64,000 nucleotides of DNA from a virus: IMG/VR virus record IMGVR_UViG_3300010157_000056, positions 1-64,000 of that record; one strand, written 5' to 3'. The notes beneath the pieces are model-generated. The model was not told the origin of the DNA, searched no databases, and was given only the letters and a program-made list of their open reading frames with translations. Below are positions 8,421-34,818 of the stretch, one piece after another; position 1 is the stretch's first letter, and the number at the start of each line of letters is the position of its first letter. The position numbers and the translations under genes are program-made.

Positions 8421-9122
8421 CTACTTAACTAGGGCGTAGTATTCTTCAACTTTGTTGAACCACATGTCTTGATATTTGTTAAAATTTTCTGGAAGTAGGT
8501 CAAATTGCTGATATTGGAAGTCCCTACTACACATAAAAATAACACCACGTTTAATATCTGTACCATAAACTTCGTTATGTGCAGTTGCATAGGCAACTAG
8601 CTGTAGATAATAGTCCTCTACCCATTCAGCTTTCTTGGGTTTGTTTGTTTGTTTATGATCACAAATTGCAGGCTGACCGTCGTATACACCTACCAAGTCG
8701 GTAGTACCAGAAAATAGCCCAGGACAATATAGACTTTGTTCCATAGCCCATACTTCATTCATTTTACTTAGACCGTTTTCAATAATAACATCAGCCATTT
8801 TATTAGCCTGTACGTGTACTGGATTATTACCAGGTTGACGTTGTTCACCGATTAAGAAACGTTCTAAATTGGCATGCATTGCTGTACCAACTCCGGCTGC
8901 TTCTGTAGTAATTTGTTGTGCTTTATCTTCTCCGATACGTTTACGCCATTCAATTAAGTGGGTCATATCCTTAGTAGCGCCTAAAATAGTTGTTACACTA
9001 GGAAGGCGTTCACCATCGGGTGTTTGATAAACACGTTTACGGGTTATCGGGTCGTTTACCTGTTGGCAATTTTTGTATTGGAATCGTTCAATGAACGGAG
9101 GAGGGGAATAGAGTGTTGTCAT
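8421..9122 (-). CDS. PD-(D/E)XK exonuclease, RecB/Cas4-like
   Basis: A 233-residue nuclease. The motifs appear in order: LPSVTTIL near residue 40, GTAMH at 79-83, an acidic residue Glu128 (AMEQSLY), Asp142 in GTTDLVG, Asp155-His-Lys157 in CDHKQ, and the helix Y-Y-L-Q-L-V-A-Y with Gln174. This is the catalytic core of RecB-family nucleases. No cysteines are arranged for a Cas4 iron-sulfur cluster. A role in DNA recombination, repair or host-DNA degradation is likely. The start is unusual: the ATG lies nine bases after a TATAAT box, with no ribosome binding site, so the mRNA may be leaderless. Confidence 0.85.
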   Translation of the reverse strand: MTTLYSPPPFIERFQYKNCQQVNDPITRKRVYQTPDGERLPSVTTILGATKDMTHLIEWRKRIGEDKAQQITTEAAGVGTAMHANLERFLIGEQRQPGNNPVHVQANKMADVIIENGLSKMNEVWAMEQSLYCPGLFSGTTDLVGVYDGQPAICDHKQTNKPKKAEWVEDYYLQLVAYATAHNEVYGTDIKRGVIFMCSRDFQYQQFDLLPENFNKYQDMWFNKVEEYYALVK

Positions 9123-9131
9123 ATAGTGTTA

Positions 9132-9160
9132 ATTATAACACCATATACTCTATAGGTCAA
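9132..9160 (-). promoter_or_regulatory. sigma70 promoter for the exonuclease gene, leaderless configuration
   Basis: TTGACC (9160-9155) and TATAAT (9137-9132) are separated by 17 bases. The -10 box sits within the dyad GTGTTA-TAAT-TAACAC, a possible operator. The predicted start near 9125 is about three bases from the exonuclease ATG at 9122. Confidence 0.75.
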
Positions 9161-18691: not shown

Positions 18692-19180
18692 TTATTGATT
18701 CAACTGAACAGACCATCCGCGTACACTAGTTTCAAGTAGTTTCCAAATACCACGATTTAATGATCCGTGTTGTGGATACATATTGGTCATTAGAAACGAT
18801 TCGTATTCAACCTGCTGTGTCCAGGATAGATCACCATCCGGTGCTGCGTGTCCTTTGTCGTAGCCAGTACCTGCGTAGTCGTCTGGTCTTGCACCTGTAC
18901 TACCTAATGACTGATCTGCTACGAATGCATTAGTGCGTGGAAAACAACCAAGTGCATTTTGTGGTAGTAATGTGTATGCAACATATACAGGGATCTTAAC
19001 AGGAGCATCATATGCAACTAGATATGCTTCGCGGCAGATTGGTTGTGCTGTTCGCTGTGTTTGTGCAAAGCCATATGGGCTATGTACCTTACATGCGTCA
19101 ACCGGAAGTGGGAGGCGTTGTTCCCACGCTTGTGCTAGACCTACAAAGGTAAGTAGCACAAGAGCAAATAGTTTTTTCAT
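18692..19180 (-). CDS. secreted DNA/RNA non-specific endonuclease (NUC1 family), truncated
   Basis: The first 162 residues of a beta-beta-alpha-metal nuclease. A clear signal peptide, MKKLFALVLLTFVGLAQA, precedes the mature start WEQRLP. The catalytic block is YDKGHAAPDGDLSW, with D-K-G-H (108-111) in place of the usual D-R-G-H and His111 as general base. The metal-binding Asn is Asn142 in SLNRGIWKLLE. These residues lie before the stop, but the C-terminal half of the fold is cut off. A TATAAATA late box lies 24 bases upstream. A periplasmic nuclease could destroy competing DNA or extracellular nucleic acids. The in-frame stop may be a mutation, readthrough site or sequencing error. Confidence 0.8.
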   Translation of the reverse strand: MKKLFALVLLTFVGLAQAWEQRLPLPVDACKVHSPYGFAQTQRTAQPICREAYLVAYDAPVKIPVYVAYTLLPQNALGCFPRTNAFVADQSLGSTGARPDDYAGTGYDKGHAAPDGDLSWTQQVEYESFLMTNMYPQHGSLNRGIWKLLETSVRGWSVQLNQ

Positions 19181-19204: not shown

Positions 19205-19212
19205 TATTTATA
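19205..19212 (-). promoter_or_regulatory. T4-type late promoter box
   Basis: A perfect TATAAATA on the minus strand, 24 bases upstream of the nuclease start. It overlaps the last codons of the FkbM gene. Confidence 0.65.
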
Positions 19213-19906
19213 TCATCTGATGCATCTTTGATTTATGTACTGCAACATAGTTAGGGCCAATAAACGTTTCATCAGTTAGGATATAATCCTTAAATTTAAC
19301 TCCCTCAGTAGTAAGCAATCCAATATGAAACCCTAAAGGTGTTAGCATTTTATAAGCATCAATTAACAACCATCTGCTTAATACATTTGCAAATCCATAT
19401 TCAAATTGAATAACACCTACCTTATTACTTGCTAATGTTTCAGTAAATCCTTCTAGCACTAGACCTTCTGCTCCCTCAACATCTACTTTTAAAAAATCAA
19501 TGTAGTTTATATTTCTACTTGCTACATACTGATCGCCTGTAACAATAAAGCACTCTCGAGTTTCAACCGGTCCTATATTGAGACCTTCAAAATACGAACT
19601 AACTGCATCAAACTCAACACTATATTGCATCTTCATCATGCCTTGTCTGTTTGATAATCCAAATCCATTAGGAATTATTTTATTATCAATGTCGACATTT
19701 GCTAGAAACTTTCTGTATACTTCTGGTATAATTTCAAATGTATGTATTTCTGCGTTAGGATTATGTTCTCTGGCCATTAAACACCATTCACCCATATTAC
19801 TACCAGCATCAATTATAGTAGATAGTTTATTTGATAGATGACGCAATAGCCCTTCTTCACCGTGGCGGGCAAATTCAGCCCTAGCGTGTTCTTTATTGTA
19901 TGCCAT
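19208..19906 (-). CDS. FkbM-family methyltransferase
   Basis: A 232-residue S-adenosylmethionine-dependent methyltransferase. Motif I is IIDAGSNMGEW (residues 31-41), the acidic end of strand 2 is HTFEIIPE, and the family signature FLKVDVEGAEGLVLEG follows at about 138-153, then VIQFEYG. FkbM enzymes usually O-methylate sugars or polyketides. Its start overlaps the stop of the giant glycosyltransferase (TAATG), whose own C-terminus is another FkbM domain, so both probably act on the same glycan. Sequence similarity between the two copies is low beyond the motifs, so the second is not a fresh duplicate. Confidence 0.85.
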   Translation of the reverse strand: MAYNKEHARAEFARHGEEGLLRHLSNKLSTIIDAGSNMGEWCLMAREHNPNAEIHTFEIIPEVYRKFLANVDIDNKIIPNGFGLSNRQGMMKMQYSVEFDAVSSYFEGLNIGPVETRECFIVTGDQYVASRNINYIDFLKVDVEGAEGLVLEGFTETLASNKVGVIQFEYGFANVLSRWLLIDAYKMLTPLGFHIGLLTTEGVKFKDYILTDETFIGPNYVAVHKSKMHQMI

Positions 19907-22900
19907 TATCTTTGTACAAAATAATAGTCACCATCAGGTCCGTTATCGCAGAATAATCCTAAACAATTAAACCCTATCTGATCCATATATGCTATAACAG
20001 TATCTCGAAGTGGTGCACCTTTGTTATATTCAATTACTTGCAATTCAAGGATAACATGTTTAGCAGTTTTTAATATTTCTTCTGCACCTTTAAGAACATC
20101 TAATTCTGCACCCTGCACATCCATTTTAATTAGATCGGGTTTAGGAAATGCTTTTAGTCTAGCCACAGTATCCAATGTTACAGTATTCAATGATCGTTTA
20201 TGTGATTCGTTAAAATACTCCAAGGCATCAATTTTAATTTCTGGATTTTCTACATAATAACTATTTCCACCGGGCCAATAATTATTCTGATAGAAATCTA
20301 CAGACTTACCAGTAACATCACTGAGAACACCAATGTGATATTTTATACCTCGTTCTTTGTATATAGATTCAACTTCTGCCATTGCATCAAACGCTACATA
20401 TTCAGCATCGGGCCATAGTTTACTTGCCTCGGTGGTCCAACTAAGAACACATGCACCTATATCATATACAACCTTAGGTTCAACACCCGATGCTTTTAAC
20501 TTAGCCAAATAATCTAGATGAATTGTAGGTATCAGTGGTTGTGTGCTTAGATTTTTTAAATGGGTTGCAACATCAACAGTTTCCATAGTTTCAATTGCTT
20601 GTATGCCAGCATCAACTTCAAATGTAAAACTACCAATATGTTTGCAAAGTATCGATGGGTCTGCCCATATTTTAAATCCTTTGTTCTTTGCCTTAGCGCA
20701 GAAATCAACATCTTCAGAAACGGTGTTGTTATGATCAATGGCGCTGTGATATTTAAACTGAGGATATCCTATTTCTCTCATTACTTCAGATTTAACTAAT
20801 ACACATCCAAAACCACAACCCGCAACTTCCACAATAGATCTACCTTTCAATTTTGCATAAGGCATTTGAGTAACACCGCCGTTAGGAGTAGGTTCGTAAA
20901 TCTCAAGTGTATGTTGCCCTGGCTTTCTTTGTATATAAAGACCTGATACTATATCCTTGTCGTGTTCCAATAACTTTTTCAGTGTATTTGTAGGGAAAGC
21001 AATATCGCTATCTACACTAAACAAATAATCAAATCCTTTAACAACCCAATCAGCAATTAAATTACGAACCTGATCTACATTATATCCAAAGAACGCTTGA
21101 AAAGTTGTTTCATATCCGTCCGGAACTTCAAGATCGTATATTGATTTAAAAGTATCTGCTTCAATATTTTTTGCTGTAGGAATAGCAATTAATATTCGTT
21201 TCTTAGCAACTGGTTGGGTGATTGTTTTTTCAGGCATTATAGTTAAGTTACTTTTTATTTTGTCGTATATTATACGTTCTCTTTCTAAAAATCCGCTAGT
21301 AATAGACAAATCTGATGTAGTGGATGCAAATGGTGTAAAGTGATCCATATTGGTAATGAGGTAATTCTTTCTACCTTTGCTAAGTTGTACATCAAATATA
21401 AAATTATCACCAAAGTAAATCTCGAGACCCTCGGGGATATCTACCCATGCACTCTTATGCATAAACATAAGGCAACCAAATCCATATGTATGTTGATTGG
21501 TCCAGGGTACTATGTTAATAGTTTTATCAGTTACTGGTATTTGATGGAAAAATGATTCACCTGGACATAATCCAAATACTCCATTATCTTTAGTTATTAA
21601 ATCTTGCAATTGTTCAAACACAGCAGTATCAAATGTTACATCATCGTTAGCAATACAAATTTTATTATTACGTGCTGTGCTAACTCCTAAATTCCAAGCA
21701 GGATTAACATATATATTCTGTTTAAAATTTATCAATTTAATTTTATCATGTGCTAGTATACTAGCAGGCGGTGTTTTCATAACATCGTTGTTGATAATAA
21801 TAATTTCATCTACTAATGGATACTCACATAGTACTTTTAAAAAATTAACAAATTGATCTGTTACTTTCCACATAGTAGGAACTACCACAGAAAATTTTTC
21901 AGGATTACCTTTAACAATCTGTCTAGCATTACGAGTTTGTTCTTGAGCATTAACTTTGTAATCATTTAACGGGCTAGCATCGTTATAGTTATAAACAATA
22001 TCTTGCAAACATTTTACCTTGGATGGATCTGCTGCTTCTATTAATGCATAGAATACACTACCATCACCACCGGCTTTGTACCATTGCCCCTGTGCATCTT
22101 TAAATGCTGAGTCATCTATGTTGTTAAGCAGTGACTTCTTAAATGTGCGTAAATGTGTATATGGTAGGATCCAATTGAAATGATGATTCCTGTATGATTT
22201 ACGTTTTTTTACATCTTCAGGATAAGGTTGACTAATTAAAGGAATGTTGTCAACCATACTCCAACATGACCCATATGTAAACTCAGTGGATCCATTATAG
22301 ATATTATTATAATATGCAAGTATATTATTGTCGTTAATCAAACTATCATCGCCATCTAGTAACATAACAATAGTATCATCAGCAATCATTGCTCTAATGT
22401 TTTGTATTTGGTTCTTAACTGCACCTACATTTTCTGAGTTAGAAATAACTAGAAATTTATTTCTAACATCCATTGGTAAATCTGCCAGTGTTGCATTAAT
22501 AACTTCAAACGTGTTATCAGTACTAGCATCATCTATTAAAATATGTAGATAGTTGTTGTAGTCCTGTGATGCTACGCTGTTAATACATCTCGCAATATAA
22601 TTAGCACAGTTATAGAATGGGCTAATGATAGCAATGTTTTGTTCATTGCCTGTTTTATAGTTTTCCAACTCTACGCTGTTATGGAACTTACGATTCCATA
22701 CTTTATGCACTCTACGATTGATATCTGAAACTTTACGATATTCTGCTCTGCTTAGATATTTGCCCAAGCGTTTAGTCATCAACTGTTTCCATTGCAATGC
22801 TACAGTATCCCAACCTGCAAGGTCTTTGACAATATTGCAATAGTATTGTTTTTGTTGATGTAAATATTTGTTGTGATATGCTTGTACAGTCATAGCAACA

Positions 22901-23964
22901 AATTTATCTACCTGTTCTGCATTATTAATATCAGGGAACAATCCGTTGGATTCAATAGCATAGTCAATAGTATAGCAAGCACCTGGCAATGCAATTTCTT
23001 CCAATGCACCAAACTTACAAGTAATAATAGGAGTATTGTACAGCAACGACTCTAATGCAGATATACCAAAAGTTTCAGGAAATGCTGATGGATATAACAT
23101 ATAACTAGCATCGGTTAAAATGTCAGCAACTTCTTTTTGTGCAATAACTCCAGTATACTCAATACCAAGAGCAGCATTGCGTGGATCAGTACTCATCTCA
23201 CGCCAGTTCTTTTCCTGCTCATCCATCGCGGACTTGGTACTGAACACATAGTAACCACCAATAATTTTTAATTTTGCTTGAGGTAGTTGTTGTTTAACTC
23301 TGGGCCAAATTAATTTAACTAATGGAATCATACCTTTAGTCACACTTGCATTGTAGACAAACAAGTTAGGATCCTTAGCTTTGATATCAACCTCGGTTTT
23401 GTAATTACGAGCTCCATTGCGTGTAATGAACATCTTATTTTTCAAGACTTCGAAGTTACGTCTACGTCCGTGATTGCAATTAGTAACATAGGTCAAGTGG
23501 AAATCACTGAGTGTAAAGATGTCAGTGATTCTATTGGCCACTGCTAGTTCTTCAATTAAATTATCACCTAAGCAGAATGTATCGTGCATCCATAGCACAC
23601 GCATAGTTGCTTTACTTAAGATCCTATTATAGAGATCCATATTTTGGAATGGCATTGCTCTGTGGTCACCTAGTTTAGGATAGTCACTAGGTGCAGTGAA
23701 TGGTATTACCGTTCTACTGCTAATAACAATATCAAAGTAGTGATTGTTGTTTAGCTCGTTTAGTGGGAGATATCTAACATTGTTGTATATACCAGGGCTG
23801 GTGTGATCAACATTACAATCATTAAAGACTGTAACATCAAATCCAATAGCAGCAAGTTCCTGCGCCATTAGTATAACAGCACTTTCGCTGCCGCCCAAAC
23901 CTTGTTTAGTTAGTGTACTACCATCGTATGGTATACCGATAATATCTATAATAGCAAGTTTCAT
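19906..23964 (-). CDS. five-domain glycan-modifying enzyme: GT4-like, three GT-A domains and FkbM methyltransferase
   Basis: A 1352-residue fusion. Residues 1-400: GT-B glycosyltransferase of GT4 type (GLGGSESAVILMAQEL; PETFGISALESLLYNTP near the donor site). About 440-685: GT2 fold (IAIISPFYNCANYIARCINS; IDDASTDNTF; MLLDGDDSL). About 690-915: second GT-A unit (FSVVVPTMW; IIIINNDV; CIANDDVTF). About 920-1135: third GT-A unit (RILIAIPTAK; YLFSVDSDIAFP with a D-x-D; SEDVDFCAKAK). About 1160-1352: FkbM methyltransferase (VVYDIGACVLSW; LIKMDVQGAELDVLKG). It should assemble and cap a short glycan in the cytoplasm. It has a near-perfect sigma70 promoter with no ribosome binding site. Confidence 0.85.
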   Translation of the reverse strand: MKLAIIDIIGIPYDGSTLTKQGLGGSESAVILMAQELAAIGFDVTVFNDCNVDHTSPGIYNNVRYLPLNELNNNHYFDIVISSRTVIPFTAPSDYPKLGDHRAMPFQNMDLYNRILSKATMRVLWMHDTFCLGDNLIEELAVANRITDIFTLSDFHLTYVTNCNHGRRRNFEVLKNKMFITRNGARNYKTEVDIKAKDPNLFVYNASVTKGMIPLVKLIWPRVKQQLPQAKLKIIGGYYVFSTKSAMDEQEKNWREMSTDPRNAALGIEYTGVIAQKEVADILTDASYMLYPSAFPETFGISALESLLYNTPIITCKFGALEEIALPGACYTIDYAIESNGLFPDINNAEQVDKFVAMTVQAYHNKYLHQQKQYYCNIVKDLAGWDTVALQWKQLMTKRLGKYLSRAEYRKVSDINRRVHKVWNRKFHNSVELENYKTGNEQNIAIISPFYNCANYIARCINSVASQDYNNYLHILIDDASTDNTFEVINATLADLPMDVRNKFLVISNSENVGAVKNQIQNIRAMIADDTIVMLLDGDDSLINDNNILAYYNNIYNGSTEFTYGSCWSMVDNIPLISQPYPEDVKKRKSYRNHHFNWILPYTHLRTFKKSLLNNIDDSAFKDAQGQWYKAGGDGSVFYALIEAADPSKVKCLQDIVYNYNDASPLNDYKVNAQEQTRNARQIVKGNPEKFSVVVPTMWKVTDQFVNFLKVLCEYPLVDEIIIINNDVMKTPPASILAHDKIKLINFKQNIYVNPAWNLGVSTARNNKICIANDDVTFDTAVFEQLQDLITKDNGVFGLCPGESFFHQIPVTDKTINIVPWTNQHTYGFGCLMFMHKSAWVDIPEGLEIYFGDNFIFDVQLSKGRKNYLITNMDHFTPFASTTSDLSITSGFLERERIIYDKIKSNLTIMPEKTITQPVAKKRILIAIPTAKNIEADTFKSIYDLEVPDGYETTFQAFFGYNVDQVRNLIADWVVKGFDYLFSVDSDIAFPTNTLKKLLEHDKDIVSGLYIQRKPGQHTLEIYEPTPNGGVTQMPYAKLKGRSIVEVAGCGFGCVLVKSEVMREIGYPQFKYHSAIDHNNTVSEDVDFCAKAKNKGFKIWADPSILCKHIGSFTFEVDAGIQAIETMETVDVATHLKNLSTQPLIPTIHLDYLAKLKASGVEPKVVYDIGACVLSWTTEASKLWPDAEYVAFDAMAEVESIYKERGIKYHIGVLSDVTGKSVDFYQNNYWPGGNSYYVENPEIKIDALEYFNESHKRSLNTVTLDTVARLKAFPKPDLIKMDVQGAELDVLKGAEEILKTAKHVILELQVIEYNKGAPLRDTVIAYMDQIGFNCLGLFCDNGPDGDYYFVQR

Positions 23965-23973
23965 ATGCTATTA

Positions 23974-24001
23974 ATTATATACTCTTTGATCAGTGTGTCA
24001 A
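23974..24001 (-). promoter_or_regulatory. near-perfect sigma70 promoter, leaderless configuration
   Basis: TTGACA (24001-23996), a 16-base spacer and TATAAT (23979-23974). The ATG follows the -10 box by nine bases, exactly as at the exonuclease gene. TATAATTAA is shared by both. Confidence 0.8.
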
Positions 24002-24011
24002 CAATCTTGGT

Positions 24012-27000
24012 TTAACGAAGTAGTAATGTTTGTGTAGGTGGAGTAAATGCTGCTGTATAACGTGCTACACCTTTGGTAATTCTAAAATCATCAATGTAGC
24101 CAGCAAAATATTCTGCTGAATAAGTTGGATAATCTCTTCCTAATACAGCGTAATTTGATGCTATAAAATAAGTAGCAGTTCCTTGTCCATCTAACACGCC
24201 ATTAAGGTATAACTTAACATTATTTGTTGCAGAGTCGCTGCGCACTAATGCAATGTGATACCAAGTATTTACTACTAAGGTAGTAGCGCAAGTTATCATA
24301 CCTGTTTTGGTACCAGCACCCGTCCCGCCACTATTTGATCCGCCTAACCAAAATTGCAATTTTGAACCTGATCCAATTCTAACTAAATTACTATCTGGAT
24401 CCGTCGACCCTATACCAAATATTCCATTTGACACTACAGTGGTTGGATAAATCCAGCATTCCATAGTAAAGTCTCCTGATCCTAAGTTATATGCGCTAGA
24501 TGATGGCATTAACAAATAATCAGTGCTACCATTAAAATACATACTGCGAGGATTATAATTAGTAGCGGTTGATGATAATTTTGCCGATCCTACAGCAACA
24601 ACATCGTTATTCATTGTTGCATCATATATACCGGCATCATTAAATTTCAATAATAAACTTGTACTAGTAGTTGTATTTATTGTACCTACAGGAGCAGCAG
24701 GTGGAGTGAATGCTGCGGTATATAGTGCGGTTCCTCTTACTATTCTCATGTTAGACATATATCCAGTATAGTATGTCCCGTCTCCTCCAATCCTTGCTCC
24801 TATTCCTGTATAATTATTGGTATCTGTAGCAGTTACCACTAATGAACCATTTATATATCCAAATGTTTGATTAGCCGATGTACTAACTCTTGACACAGCA
24901 AGATGGAACCACTGATTTAATGGAATATTTGCTAAAGTACAGAAGAAGAATGAAGGATTTCCATAAATTCCCCAACATAACCCACTTGCTTGCGTAATAA
25001 CATTGAATGAACCTGCGCCACTGGTTGCATATAATATAATTTGATTATTTGCATTGGATGGCATATATAGCCATGCTTCCCATGTAAATGCACTTGTACC
25101 AAAATTAACAATAGATCCACTGGTATTGCTCAAATAACTACTGCCATTAAAATAAGCACTGCCGCCAATCAATGTTGTATTATATGCTCCGAGATTGTTG
25201 AATGGTGAGAAACGTTGTACACTTGGTGTACCACCTACGGTAAAAGTAGAAGTTGTACCACTTTTATCCATAAATCTATTGCTAGCAGCAGTTAACAATA
25301 CTGTATTAGTTACCATAGGTAACGGTGCAGTAGCAGGGGTAAAGTTATTGGTATATACCGCTGTTCCTATTAGTCTAATATTACTCATGTAACCATTCCA
25401 TAAATACCCGCCGGCCGGATTAGCACCTATAGTAACTCCTCCCGTATTACCAACAGTTCCTGAAATTGTATTAGTTCCTACAGAAATACCGTTAACATAA
25501 CCAGTTACAGTTGTACCAACTCTAACCCAAGCAACATGAGTCCATGCATTTAATGGAACAGAAGTAGAAGTGCCCCAGGTAAAATTTGCACCGCCATACT
25601 GATTGGACCAAAGTTGCCCACCACTACCAGTTAATGTAAAATAGTATCTACCTGTTGTTTCACTACCTATAGTAAAAAATGCCGAAGTACTCCCGTATGC
25701 TGATACATATACCCAAGACTCAAAAGTAAAGTTTCCAGTGAATGCAAAAGCAGAATTACTAGGTATAGACAAATAACTACTACCATTAAAGTAATTACTC
25801 CAATTTTGTCCAAACGGTGAGAATGATCCCTGTGTTGGAGTACCAACAGTAGATGTAATAGTTAATGTATTAACACTCGAATCTATGAATGATGTATTTG
25901 TTAAATTATATGCTTGTAACTCAATAGATCCTGAAGTTGTCCAAGAATAGTATACATACCCACTAGTAGTAACGATTGTAGGAGAACCTGTTGTGCTAGC
26001 AACACTATAATTAGAAGGATGTCTAATAATAACCGTACCTGATCCTCCTGGCATTTGAAGTGCACCACCACCACCAGTTGCAGTCATAGCAGACCTAGGA
26101 ACTCCAGCGCCACCGCCCCATAGGCCGTTACTTGAAAATCCACCACCACCACCGAGTGCATACTGACCAGAATTATTACCAGCAGATCCATTTTTAGCAC
26201 CTGCACCACCGCTGGCAAAGTATCCACTTTCACCATATGCTGAAAAGTTTGCAACATATAAACCAGCGCCTGGATTTGCGTTTCCAAGTGCAGCACCACC
26301 TGCACCACCACCACCACCACCACCCGGTTGAGTTGAAGTTTGTCCAGCGTAGCCGGCATTGCCAAATCCACCACTTGGACTTAGTGGTTGCACACCAAGT
26401 CCTCCGGCGCCACCTGTAGTAGTCCCACCACCACCACCACCGGACCCTCCATACCCGCCTGCTGTATCTTTTGTTCCACCATAGCCGCCGCCCAATGCAA
26501 TCACTGAAGTTATTGTAGTTGATGTTATAGAAGAATTATTTCCAGATGTTCCGTTTGAATTAAGGGCACCACCCAATCCTCCTGCACCTATCTGTATGGT
26601 ATATATGGCATTATTAGTTAAGATAGTTGAAGTGGTTACCAACCCACCTGCACCGCCGCCACCTGTATAATCATTATTTGTATTAGCACCTGTGCCGCCC
26701 CCTCCACCACCACCTACTACCAAGTAATCTACAGATATAGATACTGGTTGTAAAGTGTTTCCAGTTAATAACAACGAATTAGATTTAAAATATGGATCGG
26801 ATTGTTTTGTAAGTGGAGCAGTATATGCAGGATTTGGATAACTGATAATAACAATACCGGACCCACCGGCGCCGCTTTGTCCACTACCAAAATTTCCACC
26901 ACCTCCCCCACCCCCACCAGTATTGCTAGTACCATCTACTGATACTGATGTGGTATTAACTGCACCTTTTCCACCACCTCCAACTCCACCAGCACCCCAC

Positions 27001-28964
27001 CCACCGGCAAAATAAGCGGCGCCACCGCCACCACCTGCATAGTAAGTAGAGACTCCTGACAAAGTTGATGTTGACCCAGCACCACCAGCACCCCCCTGAT
27101 TTGATGCACCAGATGTTCCGTTTGCACTAGCACCGCCGCCACCACCAGCAGAACTAGCACCTGTACCAGTCCAGTAAGGCGCACCACCTGCAAATCCCTG
27201 CCCCGTTGTACCAACACCGGCAATTTGAGTTCCATCACCACCACCACCTGATCCACCTGCATTGCCTGGTCCAGTATTAAATGCGGCTCCACCACCACCA
27301 CCATATGCATATTGTCCAAATGGTGGAACAACAGTAGATGTAGTAGTTGGGCTACCAGTAGGTGTAATAGTAAGATTATTAACTGAGTTATCTATAAATG
27401 TATCATTTTGTAAGGTTAATAAACTTGCTGACCATACGGTTACGGTACTAATAACCGTTGGCGATCCAGTAACTGTTAAAATTTGTGGAGAGATACTATT
27501 ATCAACTATGGTGTTAGATTGTGCTGTTAATAAAATAACATAACTTGCTGTAGAAATAGCAGAAATATTAGTACCAGATGATTGTGTAGTAGATAAGTTA
27601 GTAGTAGGAGGAGAAAAGTTACCTGTATAAACTGCAACTCCTTTAGTAATACGCACATTAGAGATAGCACCGGGAAAGTTAGCAATAGAATTATCAGCAT
27701 ACAATCTACCAACACTAATTGTAGGAGTAGCAGGCCAGGTTGGAGTTACTGTATTTGTTACAACTGATATCCCATTAAGATAAAGTGTGTTTGTAGTTCC
27801 TGAACGGACCAGCGCAATATGTTGCCATTGATTAAGAGTAAGAACATTATTAGCCGATGCATAAAAAGTATTACCGGCAATAAAAAATTCTACTGCGTTG
27901 GTTGTTGTTATCCCAATTGCACAGCCGTTTGCACCCGAGGAAGCAGTATTAGTTATAGTAATTATGCCTGTGTGTGATGGTACAGATGTTGGATTTATCC
28001 AACATTCAATAGTAAAATCTGCTGTTAATTGATTTGATGCAAGTGCAGGTCCTGTCAAATATTGTGTAGTTCCACTAAAAGAAATACCATACAAAGAAGG
28101 TGCGGCTGCTGTTAATATGCGTGTTGGTGGGGTAAATGCACTAGTATATAATGCAGTACCTTTTATTACACGAAGATTGCTGATATATCCAAATAGATAT
28201 GTACCACCTTGATTACCAATATAATTTGTACCAGATACAAAACTTGTACTACTTACTTGTGTGTTAACCAATGCTCCATTAATGAAACATTTTAATGAAG
28301 TTCCGTTTCTTGTAATAGCAATGTGCTGCCATTGGTTTTTTGTTATTGTTCCACCATTAGTTTGTGTGCCATTATCGTATATGTAAAGTGAACCATTATA
28401 TACAAAAAACTGAAAAGTAGTTGTCAACCACAGTACTGTGCCTTGTGTTGTAGCGGTTGGATATACCCAGCATTCAACTGTAAAATCACCAGTTCCAAAT
28501 GCTAATACTGTATTATTTGCTACAGTTAGGTATTGAGCACTACCGTTAAAAAAACCAGAATATGTTGTTTCGTTGGGTGCAAGTATTGCTGAAATATTTC
28601 CATTATTACCTACACCAGTTGCAGCAGCACCAATTGCTGCACCGCCTGCTCCAACTGTTATTGCATACGCAGTACCAGGAGTGACTGCAAAACCACTCGA
28701 AGTTAAAAAACCGCCAGCACCACCACCACCACCTAGCCCCGAAGATGAGTTATCTCTTCCGCCAGAGGCACCACCACCTACTACTAGGTAGGATACTGTT
28801 AGTGGTGTGCTGGTGCTGCCGTTTCTTGTTAGTGGTTGAAATACACCAGATGATGTAAAAGTATGTATGGTACTTGAACCAATGTTAGTTATTACTCCGC
28901 CAGCAGCAGCAATAGGAGAGGCCATTGCCTTCTGTCGTTTAATTATACCAAGATCATATACCAT
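24012..28964 (-). CDS. giant tail-fibre adhesin with five LamG-like lectin domains and glycine-rich sheets
   Basis: A 1650-residue protein starting MVYDLGIIKRQ, an N-terminus shared with the neighbouring giant adhesin and probably the attachment tag. Modules: a glycine-rich unit (SYLVVGGGASGG...GGGGGAGGF) near 50-120; LamG-like sandwiches with the pattern FNGS..YL...FT.E.WVYPT and ending GYISNLRVIKGTALYTSAFTPP near 135-290, 295-455, 1040-1190, 1220-1400 and 1450-1650; further polyglycine units around 560-985. LamG folds bind glycans; glycine-rich motifs resemble the receptor tips of T-even-type adhesins such as gp38. It likely recognises the host surface. Its gene precedes the glycosyltransferase gene. 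Confidence 0.8.
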   Translation of the reverse strand: MVYDLGIIKRQKAMASPIAAAGGVITNIGSSTIHTFTSSGVFQPLTRNGSTSTPLTVSYLVVGGGASGGRDNSSSGLGGGGGAGGFLTSSGFAVTPGTAYAITVGAGGAAIGAAATGVGNNGNISAILAPNETTYSGFFNGSAQYLTVANNTVLAFGTGDFTVECWVYPTATTQGTVLWLTTTFQFFVYNGSLYIYDNGTQTNGGTITKNQWQHIAITRNGTSLKCFINGALVNTQVSSTSFVSGTNYIGNQGGTYLFGYISNLRVIKGTALYTSAFTPPTRILTAAAPSLYGISFSGTTQYLTGPALASNQLTADFTIECWINPTSVPSHTGIITITNTASSGANGCAIGITTTNAVEFFIAGNTFYASANNVLTLNQWQHIALVRSGTTNTLYLNGISVVTNTVTPTWPATPTISVGRLYADNSIANFPGAISNVRITKGVAVYTGNFSPPTTNLSTTQSSGTNISAISTASYVILLTAQSNTIVDNSISPQILTVTGSPTVISTVTVWSASLLTLQNDTFIDNSVNNLTITPTGSPTTTSTVVPPFGQYAYGGGGGAAFNTGPGNAGGSGGGGDGTQIAGVGTTGQGFAGGAPYWTGTGASSAGGGGGASANGTSGASNQGGAGGAGSTSTLSGVSTYYAGGGGGAAYFAGGWGAGGVGGGGKGAVNTTSVSVDGTSNTGGGGGGGGNFGSGQSGAGGSGIVIISYPNPAYTAPLTKQSDPYFKSNSLLLTGNTLQPVSISVDYLVVGGGGGGGTGANTNNDYTGGGGAGGLVTTSTILTNNAIYTIQIGAGGLGGALNSNGTSGNNSSITSTTITSVIALGGGYGGTKDTAGGYGGSGGGGGGTTTGGAGGLGVQPLSPSGGFGNAGYAGQTSTQPGGGGGGGAGGAALGNANPGAGLYVANFSAYGESGYFASGGAGAKNGSAGNNSGQYALGGGGGFSSNGLWGGGAGVPRSAMTATGGGGALQMPGGSGTVIIRHPSNYSVASTTGSPTIVTTSGYVYYSWTTSGSIELQAYNLTNTSFIDSSVNTLTITSTVGTPTQGSFSPFGQNWSNYFNGSSYLSIPSNSAFAFTGNFTFESWVYVSAYGSTSAFFTIGSETTGRYYFTLTGSGGQLWSNQYGGANFTWGTSTSVPLNAWTHVAWVRVGTTVTGYVNGISVGTNTISGTVGNTGGVTIGANPAGGYLWNGYMSNIRLIGTAVYTNNFTPATAPLPMVTNTVLLTAASNRFMDKSGTTSTFTVGGTPSVQRFSPFNNLGAYNTTLIGGSAYFNGSSYLSNTSGSIVNFGTSAFTWEAWLYMPSNANNQIILYATSGAGSFNVITQASGLCWGIYGNPSFFFCTLANIPLNQWFHLAVSRVSTSANQTFGYINGSLVVTATDTNNYTGIGARIGGDGTYYTGYMSNMRIVRGTALYTAAFTPPAAPVGTINTTTSTSLLLKFNDAGIYDATMNNDVVAVGSAKLSSTATNYNPRSMYFNGSTDYLLMPSSSAYNLGSGDFTMECWIYPTTVVSNGIFGIGSTDPDSNLVRIGSGSKLQFWLGGSNSGGTGAGTKTGMITCATTLVVNTWYHIALVRSDSATNNVKLYLNGVLDGQGTATYFIASNYAVLGRDYPTYSAEYFAGYIDDFRITKGVARYTAAFTPPTQTLLLR

Positions 28965-28974
28965 TGTTGTTTAT

Positions 28975-31900
28975 TTATTTAAGTAGTGGAACCGCGGTTG
29001 GCGGTAGGAAGTTTGCGGTATATCGTGCAAATTTAGTAATACGGAAATCGTCAATGTAACCAGGAAAATAGTTTGATCCAGCATTCCTACCACCTAAAGT
29101 ATATACAACTGTAGGAGTTGCATAATTAGTTGTATCGGCAACACTATTTACTTGCATTCCATTAACAAACGCTTTAGTAACACCTGATGCTCTACAAACT
29201 GCAACATGCGTCCAAGTATTAATAGGTATACTAGCGTGTGCTAAAATAGTTTGATCTGTTCCGGCATAGGGTCTCCAACTTAATGCTCCACTGGTAGTAG
29301 CTTTATAAATTGCAAAAGCATTAGTAGTTTGCGCTTCCCATATTTCCATTTCAGTAGTTACAACAGAAGTTTGATAAAACCAAAATTCAACGGTAAAATC
29401 ACCAGTACCAAACCCAAATAATGGATTAATTGGTATAGACAAATAATCACTAGTACCATTAAACTTCATACTGCGACTATTAAATTTAGTGACAGCAGTT
29501 GATAGAGCAGATGTTCCTGCAGTGATAACATCGTTATTCATTGTTGCATCATATATAGCAGGATTAGTAAAGTTTAATAGTACACTTGTACTAGTGGTTG
29601 CATCTAATGGAAATAATGGTGCAGCAGGTGGTGTGAATACCAAAGTTCCTGAAGTAGTTATTGCAGTTTGATATTGACTAGGAATAGATCCGTTGATCAA
29701 TCGAAGATTACTTATATATCCTAAATAAAAATTACTAGCACTACCTGGTAGACCATTAATGCCGATACCATGTACAGAGGATGCATTATAAAGTGTTCCT
29801 GCTTGCGTAAAACTAGCAATTGCTGTAGAACCATTTATAAACAGTCTAACAACATTAGATGCATCTCTTGTGATTACGAGATGATTCCACATATTTTTTA
29901 CATAAGCGCCTGTAGTAATGCTAGCCCAGGATGTGCCATTTGTGCTGAGAAGCAATTGAAAAACATTTGCTGTGCCGCTGGCATCACAATCAACTCGTAT
30001 AGAACCATAAGATGCCGCAACTGAATTAAATGCAAATATAGTTCGCTGGGTGCCGCCTACATTTGTATTATTAAACCAACATTCTACTGAGAATTGACCA
30101 GTTAGCGATATTGCACCAGACATACTCAAATAATCAGTAGTACCATTAAAATAAGCACTGCCGTTATTGACCACTGTGTTATAAGCATAGGTCTGTGTTG
30201 GGAATGGAGTGAAGCGTTGTACACTCGGTGTACCTGCTGCGGTAAAAGTAGCGGTGCTATTCTTATCCATAAATCTATTATTTGCGCAGGTTAGTAAACT
30301 AGTATTAGTTACTATAGGTAATGGCGCAGTAGCAGGTGTAAAGTTACTTGTATAAAGTGCAGTACCCTTCAATACTCTTAGATTAGAAATATAACCATTG
30401 AAATAATAATTAGCACCCTCACTACCTATATTAGTACTACCTATTCCTAAATCATACGCTGTTGCAAGAGTTTGTGTAACTCCAATTTGTGTACCATTTA
30501 CAAACAGTCTCATACTAGTGCCACTTCGTGTTAATGCAACATGATACCAAGTGTTCAGACTCATACCATGTGCATAACTATAGTCCCATGCTAGTGCTGC
30601 TCTTACCCATCCTAAATTTGCACCTGTACTAGTAAATCCAAACCCCAATCCACCGGTACCAGATCCTGATATAATATAATAATCTGTTCCTAATAGTGTA
30701 CGATATATCCATGCCTCAATTGTGAAATCACCTGTACTAAAATTTAATGCAGCATTAGTAGGAATAGTTAAGTTACTACTACCATTAAAGTAGTTACTCC
30801 AATTTGTACCAAAAGGATTAAATGTTCCTTGTGTTGGAGTACCGGTAGGAGTAATAGTTAATGCATTAACACTTGAATCTATAAATGATGTATTTGTGGT
30901 TGCAACGGCAGGTGGATTGGTACTAATTTGAATTGATCCACTACTAGTGAATGCATATATTGTATATGCGCCAGCAGTGGCAATACTAGGACTGCCAGTA
31001 GTTGTAACTGTTTGAGCTACTGATGTTAGATGTCGAAGTACAACAGCACCTGATCCACCAGCGCCACCGGTTCCGGTTTGCCCGGCATTTTCCCAGTCAT
31101 TGCTAGCACCGCCGCCCCCGCCGCCTGTTCGTGCCTGTGCTGAACCGCCAACTGCGCCGCCGCCTGATCCAGTGCCGGTACCTCCTCCTCCAATACCAGC
31201 AGTACCGGGAACAGTTCTAGAGCCACCGCCACCGCCACCACCAAAGTATATAGCATTAGTAGCGGTAACATATTGACCAACAGTTGCAGATATTGCTGTG
31301 CCAGTAGTAACAAATATAGTACTAGATGATCCAGCACCACCATTACCACCACCACCTGATGTAGTTGCTGTTCCAGCTGCACCCCAGCCACCACCACCAC
31401 CACCACCATATCCGCCGGGTTGATTAGCGCCACCTGCACCACCTGCATTACCCTGTCCTGCTACACCTGATCCACCTGCTGGAGTTGTTGCGTTAGAACC
31501 ACCGCCACCACCACCACCAGATCCACCATTTTTACCAAATCCCCAAGCTGCATTACTTGCTGCGTCAGCACCACCACCACCTCCACCATAACTTCGTAAG
31601 GCAGAGAATACTGAATCATTGCCAGAGGTTCCTTGTGCATTATTAACTGCACCTGCACCACCAGCACCAACAACCACTGCATAGTTAAATCCCGGTAATA
31701 CATTAAAGCCAGATGTTGTTAATACACCACCGGCACCGCCACCCGCAGCATCATTGGCACCACCACCACCGCCACCTGCTACTATCAAGTAATCTAATAG
31801 AATGGTTTCTGTCCGTGCTGCACCAAACAATACAGTACCAGTACCTGATGTTACAGCATATATATTATAACCAGTTGCAGTTGTTGCAGAAGCAGTAATA

Positions 31901-34818
31901 CCCGAAGAAAAATAAGCAGCATGAGTATTGGGTACTCTTAATAGAACCACACCTGATCCACCTCGACCACCAGTACCCGGTCCAGGTGAATCACCTTGAC
32001 CACCACCACCACCACCACCAGTATTTGCTGTTCCAGCAACACCACCTGTACCACCAGTTGGTGAACCAGCACCTCCTCCACCGGTACCTCCTAACCCATA
32101 CCCATTACTTCCTAAATTACCACCGCCGCCGCCACCTGCAAAGTAAATTGCATTAGTAGCGGTAACATATTGACCTATACCTAATGCTATTGCTGTTGTG
32201 GTAGAAATTAATGTAGTAAATGTTCCAGTACCACCATTACCTGCTTGATTGGTTACGGTATCAGCAGATACAGCTGCACCAGCACCGCCACCACCTTGAC
32301 CACCGTTGTTGTTTCCAACCGTTGTAGCACCGGCGTTACCTTGTCCACTAGTAGCACTACCACCAGTACCACCAAGTTGTCCACCGCCGCCACCTGACCC
32401 ACCAGAATTACCACTACTGCTTGTACCACCGGCACCGCCACCGCCACCTATTGCAGTTAGAGTTGAGAATATTGAGTTACTACCATTAGAACCATTTGTA
32501 TCTCTTGCACCACCGTTGCCTCCTGTGCCAACTGTAACTGTATAAAGTGTTGCTAGTAAAAATGTTTGACTTGATGCTGTGAGTAAACCACCGGCACCAC
32601 CACCGCCTGATCCACCATTAGTAGAACCGGCTCCACCGCCACCGCCACCACCAGCAACTACTAAGTAATCAATGGTAGGAGCATTACTTACCGTTTGCGG
32701 ATTGCTTAACAGTAAAGATGTTTTGTTAAAATATGGATCACTGTTATTATATAATATATCATTGTTTATTCCAGAGGGATAACGAACAATTACAATGCCG
32801 CTGGCACCTGCACCACCAACGCCAGTACCACCACCTGATCCACCACCACCACCACCACCACTACCTGTAAAGATAGTAGCATCTGATGGAGTATCTGTTG
32901 CATAAGCGCCATCACCACCACCACCAATACCACCGCGCCCAATTGCAGTTCCGCCACCACCACCGCCACCGCCTGCAATATAAAATGTACCGGTAGAATA
33001 AACACCAGCACCTGCATATTGTAAGAATGTGCTGTATGCATTAGTTCCAGTACCGCCAGCACCTGCAACACCTGCTGAAGCATTATTACCAGCGCCGCCA
33101 GATCCACCACCACCACCACCGCTACTAGCATTATTGTTAGTATAGGCACCGCCGTTTGTACCGCCACCAAACCCAACGCCATATCCATAAGTAGCAAACT
33201 GGGTACTTGTTCCTCCAATGACGCTGCCAGACCCTTGGCCAGCACCACCACCCGAAGCACCGCTGTTTGGAGTACCACTATTACCCCAGGACCCGCCTCC
33301 ACCGCCACCTAACATAGTGTTAGCGAATGCAACGGTATTACCACCGTTGGTTCCATTTTGTCCAACAACTGTGGTCCCGCCTGCGCCAATAGTAATAGTA
33401 TTGCTGGAACCTGATACAATGGTGTCTGATTGATATAGTAAACCGCCAGCACCACCACCACCACCACGAGCATTTGTGCTTACACCTGCACCGCCAGCGC
33501 CACCACCACCTACTATTAAGTATTCAACAGCTATACCTGTCCCGGCTGTTACTAACCCCGAACCGGCTGTTATTCTATATATATTATAGCCAGATACTGC
33601 TGACGAAACGGTATAGGTAGTGCTAGTAGTAAAACTAACAGCATACTGATTAGGTATTTTAATAATAACAACACCAGATCCACCTATGCCACCAGCAACA
33701 TTCTCAGAACCACCGCCACCACCGCCACCAGTATTAGGAGTACCGGGTTGACCAAGAGTTGCGCCAAATCTACCAGCACCGCCGCCACCAGCACCACCAG
33801 TTGATTGTACAGTACCACTGCCGTGAGTTGATCCACCCCCACCGCCACCGTAGTATGTAGGAGTACCAGTAATGCTTGATTGTGTTCCAGTTCCACCTAA
33901 TCCACCGTTTGCAAAATTAGTACCGGTTGGTCGTTGTCCAACCCCGCCTGCACCACCACCACCCCCGCCTGAATAGTCTCCGCCACCAACGCCACCACCT
34001 GCATTACCTTGACCTGGCAATCCTGCACCCGGTGTTGTTCCTTGTCCACCACCACCACCTGATGCTCCGCCCCATCCATTACTTGCACTGTATCCACCGC
34101 CACCGCCACCCCCATATGCAGTTACGCCAACTGGTCGAGTATATGTTGATCCTATTGTTGGGCTACTTGTTTGTGTAAAGCTAAAATTGTTAGATGAATT
34201 ATCAATAAATGTAGCGTTTTGTAGTGTTAATAACTGTGTATTATTAACCACAGTTAATGCACCAGTTGGAGGAATGAATGCTGCGGTGTATGCTGCTGAC
34301 CCTTTTAAAATTCTCAGATTAGAAACATATCCTGCCATTGTTGATCCGCCGTCAACTTCAGTTCCGACAGTTAAACTAGTAAATGCCCAGGTGGTTGTTT
34401 CGGCGGCTGATTTCATTAATGAACCATTGACATATATATAATATGTGCCACTGTATCTAAGGAATACAAAATGATACCAAAAATTACTTGCAATGTTAAA
34501 AGTGAATCCAGCCTCGGCACCATTTATATATACCCGCCAGCCAGAAGTTGTTCTACCAAGGATAATTCTAGTACCACCGTTAAGATCCAAAAATGATTGA
34601 GTTACCCCAGCAGTTGCTGGCCACATTACAGATGCTTCAATTGTAAAATCGTTGGCAGTTGCGCCGAATGAAAAAGCGGTAGAAGTTGTTACTACTATTC
34701 TACCGCTACTAAAAAACGATCCATAATATGATAAAGTTGCAGGTACAGATAAACTAGAACTATCACCGTTCCAACTATAAGTGCTTACACCTCCAGTTGC
34801 GGCGCCACCTTGCCCCAC
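28975..34818 (-). CDS. main part of a giant LamG/glycine-rich adhesin, in another frame from its N-terminus
   Basis: The frame ending at 28975 gives 1947 residues from its first Met at 34818, but it is open and clearly coding upstream to about 35412, where it joins the 35984 frame by a one-base slip. The joined gene (28975-35984) would encode about 2336 residues. Visible here: a LamG-like domain (FTIEASVMWPA...NLRILKGSAAYTAAF), four long glycine-rich units each opening with a strand like EYLIVGGGGAGG or DYLVVAGGGGGGG, then three C-terminal LamG-like domains ending FTPPAAPL, NFTNPAIYDATMNND and YIDDFRITKFARYTANF. It is very similar in design to the 1650-residue adhesin downstream. A receptor-binding role is inferred. 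Confidence 0.75.
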   Translation of the reverse strand: MGQGGAATGGVSTYSWNGDSSSLSVPATLSYYGSFFSSGRIVVTTSTAFSFGATANDFTIEASVMWPATAGVTQSFLDLNGGTRIILGRTTSGWRVYINGAEAGFTFNIASNFWYHFVFLRYSGTYYIYVNGSLMKSAAETTTWAFTSLTVGTEVDGGSTMAGYVSNLRILKGSAAYTAAFIPPTGALTVVNNTQLLTLQNATFIDNSSNNFSFTQTSSPTIGSTYTRPVGVTAYGGGGGGGYSASNGWGGASGGGGGQGTTPGAGLPGQGNAGGGVGGGDYSGGGGGGAGGVGQRPTGTNFANGGLGGTGTQSSITGTPTYYGGGGGGSTHGSGTVQSTGGAGGGGAGRFGATLGQPGTPNTGGGGGGGSENVAGGIGGSGVVIIKIPNQYAVSFTTSTTYTVSSAVSGYNIYRITAGSGLVTAGTGIAVEYLIVGGGGAGGAGVSTNARGGGGGAGGLLYQSDTIVSGSSNTITIGAGGTTVVGQNGTNGGNTVAFANTMLGGGGGGSWGNSGTPNSGASGGGAGQGSGSVIGGTSTQFATYGYGVGFGGGTNGGAYTNNNASSGGGGGGSGGAGNNASAGVAGAGGTGTNAYSTFLQYAGAGVYSTGTFYIAGGGGGGGGTAIGRGGIGGGGDGAYATDTPSDATIFTGSGGGGGGGSGGGTGVGGAGASGIVIVRYPSGINNDILYNNSDPYFNKTSLLLSNPQTVSNAPTIDYLVVAGGGGGGGAGSTNGGSGGGGAGGLLTASSQTFLLATLYTVTVGTGGNGGARDTNGSNGSNSIFSTLTAIGGGGGAGGTSSSGNSGGSGGGGGQLGGTGGSATSGQGNAGATTVGNNNGGQGGGGAGAAVSADTVTNQAGNGGTGTFTTLISTTTAIALGIGQYVTATNAIYFAGGGGGGNLGSNGYGLGGTGGGGAGSPTGGTGGVAGTANTGGGGGGGQGDSPGPGTGGRGGSGVVLLRVPNTHAAYFSSGITASATTATGYNIYAVTSGTGTVLFGAARTETILLDYLIVAGGGGGGANDAAGGGAGGVLTTSGFNVLPGFNYAVVVGAGGAGAVNNAQGTSGNDSVFSALRSYGGGGGGADAASNAAWGFGKNGGSGGGGGGGSNATTPAGGSGVAGQGNAGGAGGANQPGGYGGGGGGGWGAAGTATTSGGGGNGGAGSSSTIFVTTGTAISATVGQYVTATNAIYFGGGGGGGSRTVPGTAGIGGGGTGTGSGGGAVGGSAQARTGGGGGGASNDWENAGQTGTGGAGGSGAVVLRHLTSVAQTVTTTGSPSIATAGAYTIYAFTSSGSIQISTNPPAVATTNTSFIDSSVNALTITPTGTPTQGTFNPFGTNWSNYFNGSSNLTIPTNAALNFSTGDFTIEAWIYRTLLGTDYYIISGSGTGGLGFGFTSTGANLGWVRAALAWDYSYAHGMSLNTWYHVALTRSGTSMRLFVNGTQIGVTQTLATAYDLGIGSTNIGSEGANYYFNGYISNLRVLKGTALYTSNFTPATAPLPIVTNTSLLTCANNRFMDKNSTATFTAAGTPSVQRFTPFPTQTYAYNTVVNNGSAYFNGTTDYLSMSGAISLTGQFSVECWFNNTNVGGTQRTIFAFNSVAASYGSIRVDCDASGTANVFQLLLSTNGTSWASITTGAYVKNMWNHLVITRDASNVVRLFINGSTAIASFTQAGTLYNASSVHGIGINGLPGSASNFYLGYISNLRLINGSIPSQYQTAITTSGTLVFTPPAAPLFPLDATTSTSVLLNFTNPAIYDATMNNDVITAGTSALSTAVTKFNSRSMKFNGTSDYLSIPINPLFGFGTGDFTVEFWFYQTSVVTTEMEIWEAQTTNAFAIYKATTSGALSWRPYAGTDQTILAHASIPINTWTHVAVCRASGVTKAFVNGMQVNSVADTTNYATPTVVYTLGGRNAGSNYFPGYIDDFRITKFARYTANFLPPTAVPLLK

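Follow-up and report, generated by a model that had tools for sequence, protein, structure and literature searches.

A five-module glycosyltransferase and FkbM methyltransferase fusion with a variable cassette slot, encoded beside the giant adhesins of an IMG/VR virus

IMG/VR virus record IMGVR_UViG_3300010157_000056 (73,258 bases, probably a fragment) was analysed over its positions 1 to 64,000, a stretch of 64,000 nucleotides (nt) referred to here as the window, which encodes in a single open frame a protein of 1352 amino acid (aa) residues joining one GT-B and three GT-A glycosyltransferase (GT) units to an FkbM methyltransferase (MT) in the order GTB-A1-A2-A3-MT. A second, separate FkbM gene follows. 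The first-pass annotation of this DNA had described the same anatomy, placed directly downstream of giant adhesins, and open frames, family searches and structural models substantiate that description (Table 1). The usual form of the family to which the fusion belongs is GTB-A1-A3-MT, with a slot between A1 and A3 that varies. We favour, at a little short of an even chance, the reading that the fusion is a soluble cytoplasmic enzyme assembling a short methyl-capped oligosaccharide with the phage's own fibres as acceptor, the acceptor being the least certain part of this explanation.

The assignment of the GTB unit to the GT4-type GT-B enzymes is based on a match to PF00534 (GT1; E 7.9e-10, residues 201–329, 39 bits against a cut-off of 26.4) together with the EX7E pair and the R and K donor residues, and that of A1 to the GT2 GT-A enzymes on PF00535 (E 3e-24, residues 446–601, 86.3 bits against 23.3) and a DXD motif. 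No match of its own was obtained for A2 in Pfam-A or PHROGs, and in NCBIfam it met a sub-threshold rhamnosyltransferase profile (TIGR01556; E 2.1e-5, 23.8 bits against a cut-off of 200.55, residues 716–793). A3 is of the phrog_1574 kind (function unknown; E 5.8e-27, residues 916–1116), with weaker glycosyltransferase PHROGs overlapping it. Both FkbM proteins score above the curated cut-offs of their family, the module within the fusion against PF05050 (E 2.1e-13, 51.2 bits against 22.7) and TIGR01444 (E 3.4e-17, 63.2 bits against 37.7), and the separate enzyme against TIGR01444 (E 2.5e-20, 73.4 bits against 37.7) and PF05050 (38.7 bits against 22.7). A search of the Protein Data Bank (PDB) with the MT module alone gave no convincing match, the FkbM entry 2py6 appearing at E 0.69.

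Structure prediction of the units, proposed in the first-pass annotation, yielded the GT-B fold and the GT-A folds of A2 and A3, whereas A1 and MT are covered by their sequence families instead. The model of a 1123-aa relative, L009 (predicted local distance difference test, pLDDT, 81; predicted template-modelling score, pTM, 0.56), has MshA as the best match to its residues 1–403 (Z 28.2, 332 residues aligned, 3.2 Å), and other GT4 enzymes match too; since its fold matches are limited to these residues, the folds of A1 and MT rest on sequence families. In a model of A2 and A3 together (pLDDT 79, pTM 0.50), A2 is predicted to adopt a GT-A fold that aligns to polypeptide GalNAc-transferases and SpsA with Z 14–16 (GalNAc-T2 15.8, SpsA 14.6), and a DXD-like motif (D774/D775) is present in 9/9 rows of the relatives' alignment. 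The best solved match of the A3 model is STIV A197 (2c0n; Z 17.9, 166 residues aligned, 2.5 Å, 22% identity), which was also the sole PDB profile match of alignment A1.

Two other IMG/VR records (L001 and L002) encode proteins 100% identical to the fusion, which is thus not an assembly artefact; chance read-through is likewise ruled out by these copies and by the recurrence of the GTB-A1-A3-MT order in other loci, detailed below. Frame reading shows the plus strand across the gene to be full of stops. A simple hydropathy scan revealed no clear membrane span in the fusion, its one marginal 19-aa stretch (residue 29, 1.70; second-best non-overlapping stretch 1.47) coinciding with a helix and a strand of the GT-B fold in the L009 model. 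Neither Rfam nor tRNA scanning returned a match in the window, and PADLOC defence models gave 0 matches at E 0.001 for the two FkbM-bearing proteins.

The loss of donor-site residues in most units, which by the first-pass annotation would have refuted its reading, was not seen. In the relatives' alignment, GTB R182 and K210 are invariant (105/105), as are E297 and E305 of the EX7E pair (106/106), A1 D537 and D539 (108/108) and D634 (109/109), A2 D774, D775 and D853 (9/9), A3 D985 and D987 (107 rows), E1084 (105) and D1085 (104), and MT D1168 and G1170 (96/96), the sole exception among the candidate catalytic residues being a single substitution at MT D1282 (94/95); rows are those covering each position, and near-duplicates and the two copies of the window's protein are included. 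The catalytic and donor roles of these residues are presumed by us from their families. Pairwise ratios of non-synonymous to synonymous substitution (dN/dS) lie between 0.02 and 0.21 in every module, with one pair at 0 that has no amino acid change, pairs with saturated dS being absent from this range. Every module is therefore, judged by these ratios, under purifying selection; residue conservation and dN/dS together rule out a loss of activity, and the fusion is functional-looking.

A search for similar fusions, which had also been suggested at the outset, revealed many relatives in environmental viruses of IMG/VR. A first scan identified 56 loci, two with the identical protein and the rest with best segments 52–78% identical, and an alignment scan built on 25 proteins showed that at least 519 IMG/VR stretches encode a relative, some perhaps as single modules, of which 80 were kept. 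GTB and A3 occur together in 106 of 109 distinct loci, and these 106 comprise 86 with GTB-A1-A3-MT, one with a second MT, eight with A2 and 11 with no MT, some of the last being contig ends; in L031, L119, L121, L122, L131 and L132 there is no MT match (E 1e-4) after A3 although the DNA continues. The figure of 86 is a count of module order, as in six of these loci (L041-L043, L046-L048) the modules are spread over more than one frame. The eight A2 bearers include the two copies of the window's protein, and a truncated locus (L007) is additional to them. Module-order counts leave out L057-L070 and 15 re-fetched duplicate contigs, while near-identical contigs (e.g. L001/L002, L005/L006, L024/L026/L027/L052/L055) stay in the counts of module order, upstream neighbours and residues. 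In another of the 86, L015:9977-13393, the frame is broken within the MT part, giving frames of 989 and 146 codons.

The slot between A1 and A3 is empty in most relatives and holds A2 in the window, L001-L008 and L036. In L008, A2 is accompanied by a methyltransferase-like domain (Methyltransf_24, 25.5 bits, just under the cut-off of 26.3; E 2.5e-5), and in L046 a split gene carries a GT25 unit there (PF01755, E 2.6e-8). A stand-alone A2-like gene lies after MT in L005, L006 and L036. The second FkbM gene occupies the same place in L001 and L002 as in the window and follows the stand-alone A2-like gene in L005 and L006, and in L014 another FkbM overlaps the end of the fusion. A quick tree of the shared modules, with some long branches and drawn from 28 of the first 56 loci and none of the later ones, groups the window with the A2-less L009, L010 and L012 (support 93, not starred). 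Two changes of the A2 label are required on this tree, and a single clade of carriers is rejected (approximately unbiased test, p-AU 0.0111); A2 may thus have been gained twice, gained once and lost once, or moved by recombination, and the tree cannot tell which.

A scan of viral contigs with A2 only gave nothing beyond the two known copies. Bacterial occurrence of the five-module fusion was judged from a genome-contig scan, which gave one weak 35-residue match in a metagenome-assembled genome of Patescibacteria, and from plasmids, where no match exceeded 30% coverage. In 50,697 annotated phage records, no single place covers 80% of the protein, the best coverage among the matches listed being 22% for the window's protein and 33% for L009. 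AG-345-L05, a distant member of the Kyanoviridae, shows A3-like (27% identity) and GTB-like (21%) matches in two successive, overlapping frames of 219 and 631 aa, respectively, after which come a 161-aa frame and a LamG protein; as each match has its own frame, with A3 first, this is not a GTB/A3 fusion.

The fusion gene is preceded by a sigma70-type promoter of its own, of which TTGAC and TATAAT are invariant in 13 distinct relatives, compared with means of 0.63 for the spacer and 0.57 for the DNA above the promoter, the last spacer bases being conserved too; the 13 were chosen for having TATAAT, so that the comparison tests the -35 element and the contrast with the spacer. Matches of at least 11 of 12 positions, with the -10 element ending 5–11 nt before the start, were found in 49 of 92 5'-complete relatives, near-duplicates included. 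Single matches of this quality are common by chance (3–9 per shuffled window). As a control, 204 other open reading frame (ORF) starts in 17 loci were checked over 60 nt; five have a match of this quality, each belonging to an orthologue of the exonuclease gene at 8421-9122 of the window (phrog_298, E 6.1e-55). This gene is itself preceded, at 9132 on the minus strand, by the same kind of near-leaderless sigma70-type promoter, conserved in L005, L014, L015, L053 and L055.

Several neighbouring genes are preceded by a T4-type late motif, TATAAATA, instead. All four minus-strand copies in the window lie 21–34 nt before a gene (9504, 13991, 18692 and 35999). The motif is rarer than expected (six seen, four on the minus and two on the plus strand, against 11 expected), so its weight rests on position. 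Across 16 loci, 14 of 22 plus-strand copies end 12–40 nt before a plus-strand frame, such stretches making up 6,380 of 313,400 bases, and none of the 17 fusion frames in these loci is preceded by it. Among relatives it recurs before the counterparts of gene 9504 in 5/10, of 35999 in 4/6, of 18692 in 1/7 and of 13991 in 1/11, the last two being L001's copy of the window only. Because it has its own sigma70-type promoter where neighbours have TATAAATA, the fusion is probably not simply the tail of a late fibre operon, an arrangement we do not favour; we infer that it forms, with the second FkbM gene, what looks like an early, near-leaderless unit set between late units.

A fibre-like gene just upstream is common in the family. 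The two adhesins of the window contain 24% and 22% Ser+Thr, and another protein of the fibre region 31%. Upstream DNA sufficed for a survey in 86 loci. A frame on the same strand, 150 codons or longer and no more than 120 nt upstream, occurs in 58 of them; in 49 of these 58 the frame is Ser/Thr-rich (20% or more) or Gly-rich (15% or more), compared with 9 of 167 frames that qualify by this measure on the downstream side of the fusion in 45 loci. Directly upstream genes that match a window adhesin are 28–39% identical to it, the two window copies aside. Pfam searches of ten upstream genes, mostly picked for lacking a match to the window, identified Gly_rich_2 in four, a 2OG-Fe(II) oxygenase in one, E1_FCCH in one and nothing in four.

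Table 1. Features of the fusion locus and its surroundings in the window.
Feature	Position	Strand	Basis or remark
Fusion gene GTB-A1-A2-A3-MT, 1352 aa (P0001)	19906..23964	minus	single open frame, ATG start
GTB module, GT4-type GT-B, residues 1-430	22675..23964	minus	PF00534, L009 model
GT-A1 module, GT2 family, residues 436-690	21895..22659	minus	PF00535
GT-A2 module, variable cassette, residues 691-918	21211..21894	minus	motif and fold model
GT-A3 module, phrog_1574 kind, residues 919-1125	20590..21210	minus	PHROGs, fold model
FkbM methyltransferase module (MT), residues 1130-1352	19909..20577	minus	PF05050, TIGR01444
Second, separate FkbM methyltransferase gene, 232 aa (P0002)	19208..19906	minus	start overlaps the fusion's stop
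Sigma70-type promoter TTGACA-N16-TATAAT	23974..24001	minus	12/12 match; -10 ends 9 nt before the fusion's ATG
T4-type late motif TATAAATA	19205..19212	minus	precedes the next gene (18692-19180) by 24 nt; absent before the fusion
1650-aa adhesin, 5 LamG_3 and 3 Gly_rich_2	24012..28964	minus	Pfam; 47 nt upstream of the fusion
1947-aa adhesin, 4 LamG_3 and 4 Gly_rich_2	28975..34818	minus	Pfam

Concerning the neighbourhood of the fusion in the window and its relatives, the nuclease-like gene at 18692-19180 (minus strand, phrog_14168) encodes 162 aa here compared with 273 aa in L001, to which it is otherwise 100% identical over the aligned part; it may be a broken copy or an assembly difference, and intact copies exist. 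At 61436-63478 (minus strand) a 680-aa protein contains some 390 residues of collagen-like G-x-y repeats, often GYT. Downstream of the fusion in L009 (L009:15021-17825) lie a TctC-type binding protein and a Peptidase_C26/GATase protein, and in L046 the split fusion and a Methyltransf_24 gene are followed by a short protein with a partial Glyco_transf_29 (sialyltransferase) match (L046:14585-15127). A 2OG-Fe(II) oxygenase (PF13640) is encoded near GT and fibre genes in L034:9098-9997 and L143:11614-12300, and such an enzyme could hydroxylate fibre residues and so provide sites of attachment.

The nearest working model is found in the chlorovirus PBCV-1, where A064R comprises two GTs and an O-2 methyltransferase and A061L is a separate second methyltransferase (PMC9614988, in the part available). 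As in the fusion, at least two GT domains and a terminal O-methyltransferase stand in one chain and a second, separate methyltransferase is present, a likeness that is set by domain description and not by sequence. A064R has three domains in 638 aa, unlike the five modules and 1352 aa of the fusion, and it belongs to an algal virus in which the acceptor, the capsid N-glycan, is proven. According to the available parts of two papers, the GT genes of PBCV-1 are expressed early, most of their proteins are predicted to be soluble and the capsid protein is their target (PMC9614988, PMC7826918). PBCV-1 A111/114R, a single protein of 860 aa, likewise combines several GT domains, three in number, from a different GT set and with no methyltransferase domain described. 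Reviewers of the chlorovirus enzymes call a three-transferase-domain protein one of few described (PMC9614988, same part). STIV A197, a viral GT-A enzyme, differs from the fusion in being a stand-alone protein of approximately 200 aa from an archaeal virus. Among phages, the T4-like, aquatic pelagimyophages carry GT genes among their fibre genes, and the available passages mention no multi-GT fusion, FkbM or methyltransferase (PMC7029224). Mycobacteriophages, another phage group, bear glycans on capsid and tail-tube subunits (Freeman et al. 2023, cited in PMC12619734), the citing passage holding nothing on multi-GT fusions. Among the papers listed in searches of the open-licence PMC literature, titles and abstract beginnings name no phage multi-GT/FkbM fusion. 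Multi-GT viral proteins with a methyltransferase are known in chloroviruses, and a phage fusion of this kind was seen neither in those listings nor in the 50,697 phage records; the variable A1-A3 slot and the near-leaderless sigma70-type promoter are new observations here.

According to the explanation we favour, the GT-B unit and two or three GT-A units would add sugars in succession from nucleotide-sugar donors within one chain, which the FkbM unit and the separate FkbM enzyme would then O-methylate as a cap. The acceptor would be the Ser/Thr-rich adhesins and fibres of the phage itself, which are produced alongside and put together in the cytoplasm; early transcription from the fusion's own promoter would ensure that the enzyme is present once late fibre protein appears, and the glycan would change according to whether cassettes stand between A1 and A3. 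A review regards STIV A197 as a strong candidate for glycosylating the STIV coat protein (PMC4187194, in the part available), and as the best solved match of A3 it counts for fibres as the acceptor. Further points in favour are the candidate residues and dN/dS values given above, the Ser/Thr- or Gly-rich frames upstream of the relatives' fusions, the lack of a clear membrane span, the A3-like and GTB-like frames shortly before a LamG protein in AG-345-L05, the PF16363 nucleotide-sugar genes in 5 of 12 relatives' records and the chlorovirus precedent. A number of observations weigh against this explanation. Direct evidence for a glycosylated phage protein is lacking, no initiating protein O-glycosyltransferase was identified and no relative with a known host was found. 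No module was shown to start a chain on protein or lipid, and the term complete assembly machine, used in the first-pass annotation, goes beyond the evidence. The promoter falls below threshold in 43 of the 92 5'-complete relatives, distant ones and also close ones (L030, L032, L034, L083), and a late substrate does not require an early-type promoter, which suits host remodelling just as well; since the chlorovirus GT genes are early though their product is on the capsid (PMC9614988), such a promoter leaves the choice between fibres and host undecided. In addition, 28 of the 86 loci have no suitable upstream frame within 120 nt and nine of the 58 frames are neither Ser/Thr-rich nor Gly-rich; in 16 of the 28 such a frame lies 135–597 nt upstream, all with Ser+Thr of at least 20%, and several of the remaining 12 loci diverge from a large frame on the opposite strand.

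Both targets suggested in the first-pass annotation, the virus's own fibres or virions and the host surface, are plausible. The latter, a close second to which we give a substantial chance though one distinctly under even, would have the enzyme act early to extend and methylate the lipopolysaccharide core or O-chain at the cytoplasmic side of the inner membrane, so that the receptor is masked against superinfection or the loss of progeny to debris, the linkage to adhesins arising because both track the same receptor. A promoter of early type, distinct from the TATAAATA of several neighbours, keeps this reading strong, the GT4, GT2 and GT25 units resemble enzymes of cell-envelope polysaccharides, and the GTs in the tail-fibre region of pelagimyophages are read in this way by their authors (PMC7029224, in the passages available). 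Some relatives also carry nucleotide-sugar genes typical of cell-surface glycans: PF16363 is above its cut-off in 5 of 12 relatives' records, with none in G001, the closest to the window, and the phage carrying L043 (265,892 bases) has rmlD-, rmlC-, rmlA- and rmlB-like genes and a GDP-mannose dehydratase, of which Pfam supports the nucleotidyltransferase and the dehydratase, the other rml names being read from translations. On the other hand, the fusion lacks a clear membrane span, a single lytic cycle may be too short for the surface to turn over, and the fold neighbours of A3 and A2, which act or are proposed to act on proteins, point faintly elsewhere. GT subunits of GtrABC serotype-conversion cassettes are membrane-spanning, and membership of such a cassette was rejected on the same lack of a span, the match to a GtrB-like PHROG being weak (E 3.3e-6). 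In the L043 phage the rml-like genes, the GDP-mannose dehydratase and a DegT aminotransferase lie in L067:7949-11211 and L066:8005-16405, with a stand-alone A2-like GT beside the aminotransferase, and a sugar cluster of the L005 phage (L065:3230-13541) encodes a GDP-mannose dehydratase, a fused cytidylyltransferase-like/MannoseP_isomer protein and a C-methyltransferase-like protein.

Two further roles were considered. Production of an extracellular polysaccharide, free or lipid-linked, that has no relation to virion or receptor is improbable: heparosan synthase 2 and the K4 chondroitin polymerase, both two-GT-A enzymes, are among the top Foldseek matches to the adjoining GT-A units, but at approximately 18–22 Å root-mean-square deviation over two domains, so that they reflect tandem GT-A domains and not one common arrangement, and several different GTs with a methyl cap would better suit a defined short glycan. 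DNA hypermodification, in which the GTs would decorate modified bases, is the least probable role and a very unlikely one. T4-type phages do glycosylate their DNA, and one relative's record (G003) encodes a thymidylate synthase-type enzyme (PF00303), but that family is above cut-off in only 1 of 12 records, which are fragments; the location beside fibres and the FkbM caps also speak against it. Neither Pfam (to E 1) nor PHROGs (to 0.1) names a DNA-glucosyltransferase family among its hits, three PHROGs being named only 'glycosyltransferase', and a place among the T4 DNA glucosyltransferases was rejected on this basis.

Returning to the fibres as acceptor, it is conceivable, if rather doubtful, that the fusion represents a phage counterpart of the chlorovirus glycan machinery, in which a single, cassette-shuffled chain under its own early near-leaderless promoter within the late region places lineage-specific, methyl-capped sugars on fibres; if so, phages would vary their virion glycans by swapping one catalytic module. 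Relatives differ in the units they carry, which suggests that short sugar chains are made to measure by these viruses, the probable targets being their own fibres or the host surface. The enzyme type is common in environmental viruses and yet has no whole example among the annotated phage records. Should the virion be the acceptor, fibres would bear designed sugars of variable modular make-up, which would add a new layer to the recognition between phage and host and between phage and environment; should it be the host, the fusion would represent a widespread early tool for rewriting the cell surface. Either way, it would constitute a ready-made multi-step glycan enzyme.

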